A stretch of DNA of 64,000 nucleotides, from positions 64,501 to 128,500 of the forward strand of contig JAJDDB010000027.1 of assembly GCA_029260575.1 (NCBI GenBank). Direction: 5' to 3'. Shown one piece after another: positions 12,116 to 42,621 of this stretch. The notes under the pieces are model-generated. The model saw only the letters and a program-made list of their open reading frames with translations. It was not told the origin of the DNA and searched no databases. Position numbers and translations under genes: made by a program. Every line of letters starts with the position of its first letter. Within the stretch, counting starts at the first letter, position 1. The DNA comes from Phycisphaerales bacterium. Its GTDB lineage: Bacteria; Planctomycetota; Phycisphaerae; Phycisphaerales; SM1A02.

Positions 12116-12367
12116 CACTGCAACTTCGCGAAGGGAAGAATCTTCCGCACAGATGAAGCGTTCATCTCGCTCCCCGGGAAATCCGCCTCGCGACACGATG
12201 ACGCTGCTTCGCCAAACGACACATTCGCGGAGCCAAATGACGGCATCGGTTGGCGAACTGAAACATTCGTTTCGCCCGATGGCGGCTTCGGTAGGCTCAA
12301 TCACGCTTTCGCGTCGTCCAATGGCACATTGAGAACGCGAAATGGTGACATGCCTTGCGCCCGTGGA
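12116..12367. repeat. Degenerate 21-bp tandem repeat island
   Basis: About twelve units with 21-bp spacing, most easily seen from 12200 to 12346. Unit boundaries fall at 12221, 12242, 12263, 12284, 12305 and 12326. Units share an acattcg-type start and a ccaatggc/cccgatggc-type end, for example 12263-12283 and 12305-12325. Because 21 is a multiple of three, several frames stay open and read as heptapeptide repeats (SFGSANV, SGETNVS on the minus strand). A weaker continuation with the same period runs to about 12540. A similar island is present at 42191-42379. Confidence 0.65.
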
Positions 12368-12369
12368 CT

Positions 12370-12389
12370 GCTCACTGATGTCAGTGAGC
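12370..12389. repeat. Short perfect inverted repeat
   Basis: Nine-base arms (gctcactga / tcagtgagc) separated by two bases, located just after the best part of the 21-bp repeat island. It could be a protein-binding palindrome or a remnant; there is no T-run, so it does not look like a terminator. Confidence 0.5.
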
Positions 12390-12668
12390 AGATCACTGGC
12401 ATTGGTTCTCAGTTGACTGTGATGCGCGGCCGGAACACTGATTTGCGCCCAATGCCCACTATGGCGGGTGCATTGTGTACCGGCGGAAGTCCCCAGCTCA
12501 CTGTGGCGAGCCGGAAACCTGCTGGTCGCAGTGATTGATGTGCAGCATTCCGATAAAGATCGCGCCGGGATCGGCCGAGAAGTGAGCTTTGTGAAGCGCA
12601 CGCACAGCAAATCTTGCGCGTGAGTCGGAATGGTTCGTATGCGCTTCGCATGATCGAATGTCTTGCAC

Positions 12669-12766
12669 GAGCCGCGCCCGTCAGGAAGCGGTCTTGGATG
12701 TATTTCGTCACTTTTGCGCTGCAACTTGTCAAGCAGCGTGTTTCCGCTCCTTCACGGTCGCGGCTC
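12669..12766. repeat. Palindromic interspersed element, copy A
   Basis: A 98-bp element bounded by imperfect inverted 23-bp arms: left gagccgcgcccgtcaggaag (continuing cgg), right ccgctccttcacggtcgcgg (continuing ctc). Copy B at 39944-40015 has the same left arm base for base and a near-identical right arm, while the central spacers differ. Its minus-strand translation contains RPLPDGRGS, a peptide I associate with spurious ORFs produced by such repeats in environmental genomes (recollection, not searched). It lies 21 bp before the start of the following gene. Confidence 0.8.
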
Positions 12767-12787
12767 GTACAGAGGAAAGGTCTGCAG

Positions 12788-13585
12788 ATGCTCTTGCGTC
12801 CCAAAACTCGTCGTCCTGCCAGGGATCAACTGGTTCCCGATGCGGACAGTCTGTTCGCGCTGCGTGCGCGCAACTTCGCCACAACCATCGCGCGCGATCC
12901 GCAGCGATTCAATCTCACCGCGGAAGATGCAGCATGGATCACGCAGCGGGTAAAGGAATATCGCAACGCGCTGGCGAAGGCGACCCGCCCCTCCACCAGA
13001 ACGCGCCCAGCTGTGAAGGAAAAGAACACCGCCCGAGCGGAAGCGGAGCGTGTGGTGCGGGCATTTCGGAAAGTTATTGCAGCGGATGACCGCATCAGCG
13101 CAGGTGACAAGATTATTTTGCACATCAAGGAGCGCTCGACGAAGCCGAAGCGCAGGAAATGTCCGAAGAACCCGCCGGTTTTGATCTTCGAGGGATCGAC
13201 GACTTCAGGGTTGCACAAGCTGCGGTATTGCGAGGACCTTGGGACGGGATCGAAGCAGAAGCCGGTGGGTGCGGAGCGGGTGGAGATTGCGGTGGAATTT
13301 GTGCGTGTGGGTGAGAAGACGCCGAAGTTTCCTGAGAGTTTGACGGGTCGGCCGTGGATATTGCGATCGTTTTCGAGCAGTCCGTTCGAAGTGGACTGTC
13401 CTGACCCCGGAAGTGTGGGAATTACCGAAGCGGTGCAAGCGGTGTACTGGGGCCGCTGGGCGGATGCTGTGGGTGAAGTGAGTGCGTGGTCGCGAAGTTG
13501 CAAGGGTATGATGGTGGCGCCGCAGGTGGTGGCGCATTTTCACAAGACCGATGAAGGCGACGAGACATTGCGGAAAGCGGCGTGA
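12788..13585 (+). CDS. Unnamed repeat-associated family, member A (helical N-domain plus Fn3/Ig-like C-domain)
   Basis: 265 residues from an ATG with GGAAAGG seven bases upstream, immediately after the palindromic element. Residues ~15-110 are predicted helical (RNFATTIARDPQRFNLTAED...). A PPVL(I)xxG...LRY segment follows at ~130-150, then a beta-rich domain ending YWGRWADAVGEVSAWS, which resembles the last strands of a fibronectin type III or Ig-like module. It aligns end to end by eye with the product of 41310-41978, and its C-half with 40762-41148; member A has a longer, more basic linker and an extra tail. No signal peptide is seen. Function unknown. Confidence 0.75.
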   Translation: MLLRPKTRRPARDQLVPDADSLFALRARNFATTIARDPQRFNLTAEDAAWITQRVKEYRNALAKATRPSTRTRPAVKEKNTARAEAERVVRAFRKVIAADDRISAGDKIILHIKERSTKPKRRKCPKNPPVLIFEGSTTSGLHKLRYCEDLGTGSKQKPVGAERVEIAVEFVRVGEKTPKFPESLTGRPWILRSFSSSPFEVDCPDPGSVGITEAVQAVYWGRWADAVGEVSAWSRSCKGMMVAPQVVAHFHKTDEGDETLRKAA

Positions 13586-38682: not shown

Positions 38683-39911
38683 TCACGCCGCATCCAACAC
38701 ACGAAACTCACCGTCAATCACATCATCATCATCGCTCTGCGCACGATCAAGCTGCGGCATCGCGCGCTTTGCTGAGTCCGCTTCAAGCATACGACTCACG
38801 TCATACTTCCCCACATCGCCCGGCAACAACCTTCCCTCATTCACCTGCTCCAGATATCGATCACGTAACTCCCGCGCCGCTGCAACAAACTTTGGATCAT
38901 GCTTCTGCCTCTTCTTCCGCGGCTTCTTCACCTTCGCCGGCTCCAGCAACTGCTCCGGCGCATCCAACTCCGATACGTAATCCTCGCGATCGACATACCT
39001 GATCCGCCCACTGCGAATCACCGCCTTCTTCCCCAGCGGCACACCACCTAGGTGCTGCGACTGACTGCGCATCAACATCGCCTTGTCCCTGCGCGATAAC
39101 TTCGGCTGCTCCGGCCGCGTCTTCACCGGCTGACCACCCGGCAACTCCTTCGGCACATCAAGCTCCGGCGCAGCAAGCCCCGGCAACACCACCGGCTTCA
39201 CATCACGCCAATGCGTGTCCGGCGGGATCGGCAACACCAGACGATCCTCCGCTACCGCACCATTCTGCGTCTGACTCGGATACCAATACGGCGTGCCCCC
39301 GGAAGCAGGACCATCATCGTTATCCCGCACCCGCCGCTGCCAGAAAATATGTATGCGCTGTTTCGCTCGCGAACCCGTTCGAAACGCTAATGGTACAAAT
39401 CCGATACTTTCCCAGAACCAGTTTGCCTGTATGTCCTGCGCGCACCAGCACGAAAACAGCTTGCACCCGTACGCTGCCCGCTGAAACACTTCCTGAATCA
39501 GCGTCGCCCCGACCAGATGCCGATGCCGCAGCGGCATGACGTTGAGCTGATACACAATCCCCACATCATCACGCTTCATGTACTGATCCCTGGCAATGCA
39601 ATACCCCATCTGCACCGCACCGCTGCCAACCTGCGCGACCTCCTCCGCAATCAACACATCCCCACCCTCAATGTATTTCGTAAGCTGCCCCTTCGGCATG
39701 AACCCCACCATATGACTGTGCATCTTCTGCAACGCATCAACAAACGGCAGGTCGCTTCCGTCGCTTCGCGCACCTGCACATTACATCGAGCAGTCGGCGT
39801 CACCGCAGGAACATCACTATGCGCCTGCGACATTGCACGGTCATTACTTCCGGGGGCACACTGCGCCATAAACGCTGCAACGATCTCATTCGTTTCTGAT
39901 TTACGACTCAT
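38683..39911 (-). pseudogene. GNAT-family acetyltransferase gene broken by a single frameshift
   Basis: The 5' part (39911 to about 39758) encodes MSRKSETNEIVAAFMAQ...VQVREATEA; the GNAT core continues in another frame as DLPFVDALQKMHSHMVGFMPKGQL...YIEGGDVLIAEE...VYQLNVMPLRHRHLVGATLIQEV. Joining the frames near 39753-39758 (one base missing on the coding strand) restores a continuous N-terminus of the kind GNAT proteins have. The 3' part adds a ~200-residue basic, Pro-rich tail ending in DPKFVAAARELRDRYLEQVN. Without correction, the long frame could only start at a TTG at 39732. Either a true pseudogene or a sequencing error. Confidence 0.7.
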
Positions 39912-39943
39912 GACATGTCTTTCGTAGAGGACAAATTCCGAAC

Positions 39944-40015
39944 GAGCCGCGCCCGTCAGGAAGCGGGTTGCGTGTGTTTGCGGACATCATTCCCGCTCCC
40001 TCACAGTCGCGGCTC
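39944..40015. repeat. Palindromic interspersed element, copy B
   Basis: A 72-bp element with imperfect inverted 23-bp arms: left gagccgcgcccgtcaggaag (continuing cgg, identical to copy A), right ccgctccctcacagtcgcgg (continuing ctc, two or so mismatches from copy A). It lies between the broken GNAT gene and the Ig-like ORFs. The shorter spacer shows that the arms, not the middle, are conserved. Confidence 0.8.
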
Positions 40016-40016
40016 G

Positions 40017-40370
40017 TTACGACACACCCAACACAAACGCATCCGCTGCCAAACCATCCGGGGGCGCGCCCACCACATCCGCAGGCGATGCGCCATACGC
40101 AATACTCAGCGCCGCATTCTGCTTGCTGAACGTCAGCAGCACACCGCTCGGCACCTGCACCGACGCAGCGCTCGGCACTTCCACACCGAAATCCGCCAGC
40201 GTCAACAACCAGTTCGCTGCACTCAGCGGCTGATCCAGCAGCGCCTTATCAAACGACACCAGCATCTGCTTCGTCGCTCCAACCCAACTCGCACTCACCG
40301 CAACAGGCGGCGTTTCCGGGGGCGGCGACTCATGTAACGGGAAACGTACTATCCGCGACGTACCCTCCAT
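40017..40370 (-). CDS. Ig-like domain ORF, second half of a possibly split gene
   Basis: 117 residues. After a short Pro-rich linker (ESPPPETPP) it reads VAVSASWVGATKQMLVSFDKALLDQPLSAANW...VLLTF, which matches the pattern of the upstream ORF (VRITSASVNTTVLTLTFDQPV). Both look like single bacterial Ig-like beta-sandwiches. The ORF overlaps the upstream one by 41 bp and is in the +1 frame relative to it. Its ATG has no good Shine-Dalgarno. It may therefore be expressed by frameshifting, or the two ORFs may be one gene damaged by an indel. It ends 2 bp before palindromic copy B. Confidence 0.6.
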   Translation of the reverse strand: MEGTSRIVRFPLHESPPPETPPVAVSASWVGATKQMLVSFDKALLDQPLSAANWLLTLADFGVEVPSAASVQVPSGVLLTFSKQNAALSIAYGASPADVVGAPPDGLAADAFVLGVS

Positions 40371-40659
40371 CCTTGCTGCGCACGCCTGGCTCGACCGGGC
40401 TGGGTATGGTCACCATCGTCGCTGCTGCGATATCCGCATCAAACGTAATCTCGACCGTACCAATCGCAGAACTCGCCGCGCTCACTGCAACTGCGCCTGC
40501 TACATCGGTCGTATACGCAGGCGTGCCGCGCAACACCACCGGCTGATCGAACGTCAACGTCAGCACCGTCGTGTTCACCGATGCGCTGGTGATGCGCACC
40601 GCGGTCTGCTGCTTGGGCTTCACGCGGCCATGATTACGTTTCTCAACTCTACCTAACAT
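40330..40659 (-). CDS. Ig-like domain ORF, first half
   Basis: 109 residues from an ATG with a perfect AAGGAG seven bases upstream. A basic N-terminus (MLGRVEKRNHGRVKPKQQ) precedes an Ig-like fold: VRITSASVNTTVLTLTFDQPVV...GTVEITFDADIAAATMVTI. It ends ADSTFPVT just where the next ORF begins its linker in another frame. No signal peptide is visible. It follows, in the same direction, the family members at 40762-41148 and 41310-41978, which also carry Ig/Fn3-like modules. Confidence 0.65.
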   Translation of the reverse strand: MLGRVEKRNHGRVKPKQQTAVRITSASVNTTVLTLTFDQPVVLRGTPAYTTDVAGAVAVSAASSAIGTVEITFDADIAAATMVTIPSPVEPGVRSKDGGYVADSTFPVT

Positions 40660-40761
40660 GATCGTGCTCCTTATCCGCGCGCACTGGCGCGATTGGTTGT
40701 TCGTTCATTCGCAACGCAGAGGGGACACCCCTCTGCAACTCCCCGAAGGCAGCCGTGCTCA

Positions 40762-41148
40762 CTACACCGCCACCCGCATCGACGTCGGCTCGCTCCACGG
40801 ACCCGTCTCGCCACCCCGCGAAACCCACCGGCCGTAATACGTCGCCACCTTCCCATCGTCCCAATGCTCGTACTGCAACTCGATCAGGTTCTTCGTGAAC
40901 GTGCGATGGAACCGCGCTTCACTGACAGGCAAACGCTCAGCACCCAAGGCAATGAACAACTCCAGGCCGGTCGCGCCCGCCGCTTTCCTGCGGGCATCCG
41001 GCGACTGCGAATCGGCATACCGCAGGCATTGCACGCCGTTCGGCGTATTGCCCAGAATGGTCAACAGCGGCGGCGTCTGCGGGCACTCAACCCGCCTGCG
41101 ACGCGGCTTGCGCTTCTTCAACTTCGCATGATCGATGACACATTCCAT
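40762..41148 (-). CDS. Unnamed repeat-associated family, member C (C-domain only)
   Basis: 128 residues from an ATG with AAAGGA eight bases upstream; a longer reading frame to 41262 runs into an inverted repeat and is not coding. After a basic stretch (KLKKRKPRRRRV) it reads PPLLTILGNTPNGVQCLRYAD...ATGLELFIALG...VATYYGRWVSRGGETGPWSEPTS, matching the C-terminal half of members A and B, including the Fn3-like final strands. The helical N-domain is absent, so this is a natural single-domain version or a truncated copy. Confidence 0.75.
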   Translation of the reverse strand: MECVIDHAKLKKRKPRRRRVECPQTPPLLTILGNTPNGVQCLRYADSQSPDARRKAAGATGLELFIALGAERLPVSEARFHRTFTKNLIELQYEHWDDGKVATYYGRWVSRGGETGPWSEPTSMRVAV

Positions 41149-41170
41149 TGCACACATCCTTTCACTGCCC

Positions 41171-41253
41171 GTCATTCCTGCGCAGGCAGGAATCCAGTGA
41201 TTGCACAAACACTGTCCGCCCGTCCACTGGACTCCCGCCTCCGCGGGAGTGAC
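41171..41253. repeat. dRS3-like inverted-repeat element
   Basis: 27-bp imperfect inverted arms (41171-41197, gtcattcctgcgcaggcagg...; 41227-41253, ...ccgcgggagtgac) differing at about five positions, with a 29-bp spacer. Its translations read SRLRGSD/TPAEAGVQ and IPACAGMT, peptides widely produced by a common dispersed repeat in bacterial genomes. It occupies the gap between family members B and C. Confidence 0.8.
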
Positions 41254-41309
41254 ACGAAACACAATGTCTGGCTGTCTGGCTTTCGGCGCTTCGGCGCTTC
41301 GGCGTTTGC

Positions 41310-41978
41310 TTACGCCGCGATCCGGAAACTGATCGGTACCGACAGCGGCCCCACTTCGCCCCTCGGGCTGGCCCAGCGCGCGTAATACGTCGCAATCTTG
41401 CCATCCTGATCTTCAGTAAAGTCCACTTCAATCGGATTGCGCGTGAACTTGCCGTAGAACTGCGCTTCGGAAAAGGACGGGTCCTCAGTATCCGTGACCG
41501 CCAGGAACAATTGCAGTTCACTCGCGCCGAACGGCCGCGCTCCGCTGTCCGGCGTCGTCGTGTCGGCATACCGCAGTGTCTGCGTGCCCGGCAGATTGCC
41601 CAGCACATTGATCAGCGGTGATGTGGTCGGCACATCAATCGGCTCACGATCCGGATTGATCGGCCGCACGCCGATGTCAATCTTGTCCTCGTCCGTAATG
41701 CCTTCGTTATTTTTGATGTCGATCGCATACTGCCTGCACAACGACTCGCAGATCGACCGCGCATTGACCTTGGCCGCGACGGTGCCCTTGGTGCGCGTCT
41801 CCGGCGTGGTCGCCACCAGCAGCGCATTGACGAAGTTCGTCACCGTGCCGGCGATGGACGAAGCCTGCGCCGCAGTGAGCATGAACTTTGCAGGATCAGC
41901 GGAAATTCCGTTGCTGAATGCCTGGGCCCATAAACTGAAATTCGCATCTTCGCGCGGAATGTAATCGGTGCCGGCCAT
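41310..41978 (-). CDS. Unnamed repeat-associated family, member B (helical N-domain plus Fn3/Ig-like C-domain)
   Basis: 222 residues from an ATG with CAGGAG seven bases upstream. Residues ~10-95 are helical (DANFSLWAQAFSNGISADPAKFMLTAAQAS...). PLINVLGNLPGTQTLRYAD follows near 130-148, then a beta-domain GASELQLFLAV...KIATYYARWASPRGEVGPLSVPISF. The N-domain aligns with member A (FATTIARDPQRFNLTAED) and the C-domain with A and C. It is the first gene of a minus-strand run (B, C, two Ig-like ORFs, GNAT, metallopeptidase). Not recognised; no signal peptide. Confidence 0.78.
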   Translation of the reverse strand: MAGTDYIPREDANFSLWAQAFSNGISADPAKFMLTAAQASSIAGTVTNFVNALLVATTPETRTKGTVAAKVNARSICESLCRQYAIDIKNNEGITDEDKIDIGVRPINPDREPIDVPTTSPLINVLGNLPGTQTLRYADTTTPDSGARPFGASELQLFLAVTDTEDPSFSEAQFYGKFTRNPIEVDFTEDQDGKIATYYARWASPRGEVGPLSVPISFRIAA

Positions 41979-42190: not shown

Positions 42191-42379
42191 ACGGAATTTT
42201 CGTTCCCTCAAACAAACATTCCGTTCCCGGTCACGCACGTTTCGCTTGCGGGAACGAAAGCTGCGTTCCCGGTCGCGGATGTTCCGTGTGCAGGAACGGA
42301 TGTCGCGTTTGGCCCAACGACGTTTCCGTTTCAGGTCACGCAATCCTCGTTGGCGGGAACGGAGTTCGCGTAGGGGTCA
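42191..42379. repeat. Degenerate 21-bp tandem repeat island
   Basis: Nine 21-bp units starting at 42191, 42212, 42233, 42254, 42275, 42296, 42317, 42338 and 42359. Most begin acg/aca, have cgttc or ttcgc in the middle and alternate between ends ccggtc and gcggga. No stop codons fall in several frames; one frame gives heptapeptides (TNIPFPV, THVSLAG, TKAAFPV, TQSSLAG). Alternating units (2, 4, 7 versus 3, 5, 8) resemble each other more than neighbours do, suggesting a 42-bp higher-order unit. Confidence 0.8.
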
Positions 42380-42621
42380 ATACAAGAGCTGTAGAGGACA
42401 CCGGAGATTGGGTTGGAGGAATCAACACACAATTCACGTGTGTTGACGCGCTCATACGGCACTTTGATCTCGAAACCCACCTTACTTACTCGACGTTAGG
42501 TGAGGTTTTGGCATTCGCGTAACCACCTAATTTAACACAAGTTGCGCCATTCATCACCGGGATGAAAGTAGGTTCAGATGGGAGCTGAGATTCTATAATT
42601 TGGAGCTTGACTCACAAAAAC

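Follow-up and report, generated by a model that had tools for sequence, protein, structure and literature searches.

The window analysed here, a stretch of 64,000 nucleotides from a Phycisphaerales bacterium, carries two loci at which members of one protein family are preceded by a degenerate tandem repeat. Gene A (12788-13585, forward strand) encodes 265 residues predicted to form a helical bundle and an Fn3-like domain, an architecture taken from the model of a homologue. Gene B (41310-41978, reverse strand) is a full-length member whose reading frame is open to 42107, and gene C (about 40762-41157, reverse strand) is a partial member that comprises mainly the Fn3 part. The initial annotation had matched gene A to genes B and C some 28 kb away, and protein matches linking A to both confirm this. 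It had also described a 21-bp island before gene A at 12116-12367, which we recover at 12122..12351 on the forward strand as ten called 21-bp units with one further unit skipped (z=8.0 at period 21, the best window beginning at 12153). The array before gene B (42194..42424, reverse strand; z=8.9) is likewise made up of ten called 21-bp units, with one unit skipped, and contains CGTTCCC / GGGAACG dyads. Across the window, z rises above 4 at period 21 in only two places, 12153 and 42190, which correspond to the gene A and gene B islands. With its minimum score set to 40, Tandem Repeats Finder missed the gene A island, and at 42222-42309 it called a 42-bp unit in 2.1 copies. Next to the gene A island there is also a period-7/14 signal, which was set aside as probably an alias of 21, the mean lag-7 and lag-14 excess being zero over 54 arrays.

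Two inverted repeats also lie upstream of gene A. The shorter (12369-12392; 11-bp perfect arms, 2-bp spacer) is the perfect small palindrome of the initial annotation and is real, but it does not recur regularly at arrays: inverted repeats with arms of at least 9 occur beside 3/60 arrays on the 3' side, 3/60 on the 5' side and 3/300 random stretches, so that they are no regular companion of arrays. We therefore reject this element as a part of the module and consider it probably incidental. The larger palindrome was also present where annotated, but it measures 108 bp rather than 98 and ends 16 rather than 21 bp before gene A. Its 28-nt arms (12664-12691 and 12744-12771) are 82% complementary and 52 nt apart. 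The whole element (12664-12771, half-site CGAGCCGCGCCCGTCAGGAAGCGG) has a second copy at 39941-40018, and is a dispersed REP-like repeat, separate from the arrays; we found 17 half-sites, read as 12 elements, 8 of which, by our tally, have a family gene or relic no more than about 3.4 kb away. By eye, the same palindrome appears in frame within the GNAT reading frames of L018, L165 and L168, as a peptide EPRPSGSG... before PLGYC, and the GNAT frames of L128 and L170 have other insert sequences in about the same loop. Peptides of this in-frame kind are probably common in planctomycetes.

On the reverse strand, 38683-41978 reads as a cassette of family gene, partial second copy, two small proteins and GNAT, parts of which recur elsewhere. 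The first small protein (40330..40659, reverse strand), between family gene and GNAT, is SWM-repeat-like (Pfam SWM_repeat E=0.016, below cutoff); the second lies at 40017..40370 on the same strand. The GNAT-like acetyltransferase (38683..39732, reverse strand; Acetyltransf_7 E=0.006, below cutoff) by eye resembles the GNAT cluster found 3' of family genes. Among downstream neighbours, GNAT-like proteins cluster at 19/90 loci and the two small proteins at 7/90 and 5/90, the gene B/C locus included in both, counts that are minima, since no more than 1.5 kb of flank is available at many loci. Pfam scans covered 89/130 upstream and 97/167 downstream ORFs; Acetyltransf_7 matched 12/97 downstream, and upstream the neighbours are diverse, with no family in more than 3 of the 89. 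The next gene has ten-residue repeats at five loci in G040, G086 and G217. At L147, L148, L155 and L156 the gene 3' of the family gene encodes such repeats (GAVTTEKIAN-like, resembling fibre repeats) and gives a period-30 DNA signal.

The family is multicopy in the 4.1-Mb genome to which the window belongs. The gene A protein as query returned 22 match rows there, and profile A1, built from 18 members, gave 24 matches, counting partial copies, two copies at contig ends and two decayed relics. Near-identical family genes at two contig ends (L014 and L016; G000 C28:1-595 and C29:5808-6402) are cut where the array would be expected, and the assembly may break at arrays. Genes A, B and C reached the cutoff of no Pfam or NCBIfam model (best for gene A at chance level, E 0.022 and 0.06), the 18 members had no match in PHROGs (best E 0.024), and among solved structures the best match to the A1 profile had E 0.12. 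The annotated combination of helical and Fn3-like domains is nonetheless upheld by an AlphaFold2 model of the homologue L165, rather than of gene A itself, made from 12 sequences (pLDDT 87.7): a helical bundle at the N-terminus is followed by an Fn3 sandwich at the C-terminus, the latter half matching Fn3 domains with Z 12.0 to 3n1g_D (rmsd 2.2, 96 residues aligned). A gene B model built from a single sequence was of low quality (pLDDT 35). There is nothing unusual about the fold of the Fn3 half. For the helical domain no relative appeared among the matches listed by the fold search, which barely probed that domain. No DNA-binding domain was recognised in the family proteins, and the predicted charge of their cores is mixed, with pI>8 in 45/74 and pI<6 in 17/74.

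Profile A1 found matches in 13/392 Planctomycetota genomes (12/265 genera), usually more than once per genome: of the eight genomes searched in full, seven have 4 to 9 copies and G329 has one, whilst six candidates were scored per genome in this survey and seven in that with profile A9 (below), which makes copy counts in most other genomes lower bounds. Family members sit on chromosome-size contigs, for example the 8.9-Mb contig of G291. The labels of 11 contigs with relatives comprise four Phycisphaerales, four other Planctomycetota, two Vicinamibacteraceae (one a MAG) and one Methylococcaceae. The Vicinamibacteraceae label seems to be wrong, given that the MAG carries the same contig as G029, which is placed in the order of the window's own genome; in the phylum of G410, the genome labelled Methylococcaceae, 2/200 genomes match, one being G410 itself and the other marginal at E 6e-5. 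Gene A and L148 had no match in phages, L008, the one protein searched against plasmids, had none there, and three IMG/VR scans of viral contigs with profiles A2, A3 and A7 confirmed no relative. PADLOC models at E 0.01 matched 0/6 proteins, five of them from the family and one a GNAT.

The initial annotation had anticipated that repeat islands would occur near homologues more often than in the genomic background, and this proved to be so. For each member we took the 210-bp window with the highest score at either period, 20 or 21, within 900 bp 5' and 930 bp 3', with z scaled on the window's own 64 kb and a threshold of 5; 94 hits were merged to 90 members, 84 of which were scored 5' after six with less than 700 bp upstream had been dropped. 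An array was present 5' of 55/84 relatives and 3' of 2/83 (51/76 against 2/75 when only members at E<1e-10 are considered), compared with 4/414 random 930-bp tiles of the own genome, and periods of 16, 17, 19, 22, 23, 25 and 26 gave 0/84 on the 5' side. In six further, held-out genomes with the threshold unchanged, the counts were 8/22 and 0/20, based on 22 of 29 loci (four already seen, three with short upstream sequence) from 38 match rows. Relatives without an array at threshold numbered 29/84, and 14/22 in the held-out set; the rate is clearly lower in G411, since 0/5 new members there carry one. Arrays as a general property of multicopy families were rejected using a control family of membrane proteins from the own genome (motif AVNVAVAWGC), which had an array at one place among 18 loci, these being 18 of 21, some overlapping, with three short pieces omitted. 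Seen at L031:949-1656 and L162 in that genome, this multicopy membrane protein family has the motif FLLLGAAVNVAVAWGC, 21 match rows and no Pfam hit. We regard the association of the array with the gene family as secure, with very little room for doubt.

A scan for arrays blind to the genes approached this relationship from the other side. It covered 100 stretches of 20 kb (40 from the own genome, 20 from G318, 20 from G086, 10 from G024 and five each from G015 and G026), placed at random in the own genome, G318 and G086 and evenly in the other three. Fifteen non-coding period-21 arrays were found at z>5.5, among which we count that of L029 by our own judgement, even though a reading frame without stops runs across it; we set aside two period-21 calls that fell within coding ORFs (L040, L285), together with six at period 20 with z 5.6-6.5 (L240, L241, L277 twice, L280, L303). 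Nine of the fifteen lie directly 5' of a family gene (L025, L041, L233, L245, L278, L280, L281, L291, L296) and six are orphans without one (L029, L031, L037, L232, L274, L295). Three of the orphans (L274:6189-6671, L232:6357-6727 and L295:17711-18088) are strong and stand 5' of ordinary genes, by eye ExbB/MotA-like, phosphodiesterase-like and FG-GAP-like. The 400 kb scanned in G318 held no arrays and no family genes, and neither gene C nor the L240 gene, both in the own genome, has an array to itself. G024 had given no match to A1, and two of its three blind arrays lie directly 5' of divergent family members that had been missed. These define a second branch (profile A9) homologous to A1 over 209 columns (probability 98.6, E 9.9e-16), whose match to 3mpc_A at E=1.6e-6 agrees with an Fn3 assignment. 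Arrays accompany 5/8 examined members of this branch (z 6.2-17.1; L073, L114, L121, L291, L296) and none was seen at L071, L079 and L085; L291 and L296 are not independent evidence because they were found through their arrays. A9 matched 58/392 genomes, most hits covering only the Fn3 part of large proteins, and by our reading about ten genomes have full-length matches.

In all, 60 arrays were called, 54 with period 21 and six with period 20, of 7-19 units (median 10) with few off-period steps. They end a median of 167 bp, and at least 20 bp, before the start of the profile match. A coding repeat is rejected because 6/60 arrays have a period that is not a multiple of three. Whole-unit dyad symmetry (z>1.65) was detected in 37/54 period-21 arrays and 1/6 period-20 arrays, and 28/60 arrays pass a stem test at p<0.05. 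The letters of the unit differ between nearly all copies of the array: the unit core of L020 had five hits in its genome, all within its own array, and that of L022 a single hit, also within its own, these being the two cores searched. Unit similarity between same-period pairs below 25% protein identity was at null level (9/823 above the 99% null) and became common only above 60% identity (6/12 pairs), although L010 and L011, at 29%, have part of a unit in common, and L022 in the own genome has a 20-bp unit in common with L168 from another family of the order. Across 39 gene pairs with at least 50% protein identity, gene DNA could be aligned in 39/39 and array DNA in 7/39, one of these over only 18 bp, and the period differs in 4/39. 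Thus the period and place of the array are kept while its letters change faster than the gene. As non-coding DNA drifts faster than genes, such turnover alone is no proof that arrays are replaced. Homology limits examined in 11 pairs make replacement likely in two: the L147 and L148 proteins are 86% identical and their genes and 3' genes are common, but the arrays could not be aligned and by eye have only an 11-bp dyad core in common, and L107 and L153 have the upstream flank and gene in common but not the array between them. The initial annotation's other suggestion, a protein that binds the repeat as its DNA target, may apply, but such rapid turnover of arrays speaks against a single fixed recognition sequence.

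The initial annotation had raised a mobile or modular cassette, and the modular half of this proposal is supported. In L128 and L139, two copies in one genome, DNA homology is that of array plus gene (-401 to +652) with one 38-bp match beyond, and the upstream neighbours are diverse, as described above. Mobility is only suggested, by the patchy and multicopy distribution and by two gene relics, L212 and L213, that keep their arrays. Were array and gene to move or disperse together, the array could be an end or a recombination substrate rather than a regulator, and orphan arrays would also fit. An unsystematic look noticed no transposase, target-site duplication or end signature, the array stands at the 5' side only, and a recombinase would hardly be expected to recognise arrays of unrelated sequence; we consider this account unlikely, if still one to be taken seriously. 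A further suggestion, which we rate as rather doubtful, is that the cell actively re-writes its arrays, a new two-turn founder unit being repeatedly amplified in place to give each gene copy a private, renewable address; spacing and symmetry would then be inherited and the letters would not.

The internal structure of the arrays bears on whether they serve as contingency loci, in which repeats between promoter and gene would tune expression by varying in number through slippage or unequal exchange, the two-turn units holding helical phase. The 20/21-bp spacing would suit such a role, as would higher-order repeats in L122, L146 and L168, the slightly greater likeness of near than of distant units, and unit numbers of 9, 13 and 10 called in the related arrays of L022, L168 and L165. 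However, with a median identity among units of 0.58 the degenerate units are poor slippage substrates, and the dyads are left unexplained, which makes this improbable. An array of RNA hairpins, in a leader or a separate transcript, has less to commend it still. In some arrays no more than 60 bp separate the end from the profile start, and folding is better than in column-permuted arrays for 52/60 sense and 48/60 antisense strands. When the stem is chosen from the inter-unit pairing, pairing within units exceeds that between units by a small margin (+0.018, up in 34 arrays and down in 22; Wilcoxon p=0.007), but the permutation covariation test gives a Fisher p=0.36, G.T pairs show no excess (297 vs 299 expected; A.C 254 vs 266), sense and antisense fold alike (32/60, p=0.23), and Rfam at gathering cutoffs found no match in the arrays of 20 loci, only a tRNA in L152. 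With little covariation and no strand asymmetry, symmetric double-stranded DNA sites are favoured over RNA hairpins, which we set aside as the main reading and to which we assign a small probability. Neutral satellite DNA hitchhiking with the gene family could account for fast turnover, orphan arrays and a centre-to-edge decay (46/59 arrays, partly forced by how the caller ends an array), but it would leave unexplained the period, the dyads, the 5' placement in two divergent branches and the occurrence in other classes of the same phylum, and we likewise give it little chance.

The reading that we favour, though tentatively and as somewhat less than probable, is that the array is a cis-acting row of dyadic double-stranded DNA sites on one face of the helix, controlling or insulating its gene. 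The module would then consist of a satellite-like array of 7-19 mostly two-fold symmetric units of 20 or 21 bp, or two helical turns, and, just 3' of it, the gene for a helical-bundle plus Fn3 protein. An oligomeric protein may bind the sites cooperatively, either the protein that the gene encodes or a host factor responding to shape and phase more than to letters. By this means the array could set or insulate the expression of the adjoining gene copy, and private units might keep the many copies from cross-talk. Consistent with this are the 5'-only placement, the 20/21 period, the dyads, the private units, their turnover and the reverse prediction in G024; against it stand the lack of a recognised DNA-binding domain, the mixed pI, the unalignable arrays of L147 and L148, the relatives without arrays, the orphans, the weakly dyadic 20-bp arrays and the Wilcoxon p=0.007.

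We recognised no paper on these arrays in the literature covered, which included PMC5854607 and lay outside subscription journals and preprints. These findings connect a multicopy family of uncharacterised genes with a satellite-like class of bacterial DNA and point to an unrecognised gene-plus-repeat unit in some planctomycete bacteria. It is unusual for period and symmetry to be conserved where the sequence is not, and a search rule has been gained in that blind array scanning finds divergent family members missed by the first profile.

Several known systems resemble parts of this arrangement. As in plasmid iteron-Rep modules, a gene is preceded here by tandem repeats, about 20 bp long and spaced by two helical turns, but the arrays stand on chromosome-size contigs, with up to 24 matches per genome and differing units; Pfam and NCBIfam scans found no Rep family, although the helical domain was barely probed by the fold search. 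Multi-site operator arrays of oligomeric regulators line up dyadic sites before a gene, on a single face of the helix, whereas here there are 7-19 sites, no known regulator domain and a unit sequence that is not kept between close relatives. Like promoter-proximal minisatellites and contingency loci, the arrays lie 5' of a gene and show signs that tandem units are gained and lost, but they differ in their narrow 20/21-bp period, their dyads and their tie to one gene family. The 12664-12771 palindrome is akin to REP and other palindromic extragenic repeats, as a short dispersed inverted repeat, whereas the 21-bp arrays do not represent a single sequence copied to many places. CRISPR, too, sets a tandem array next to a gene; the arrays here differ in having a 21-bp period and degenerate units with no repeat-spacer structure. 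No known family tested fits all of the features of the module of array plus gene.
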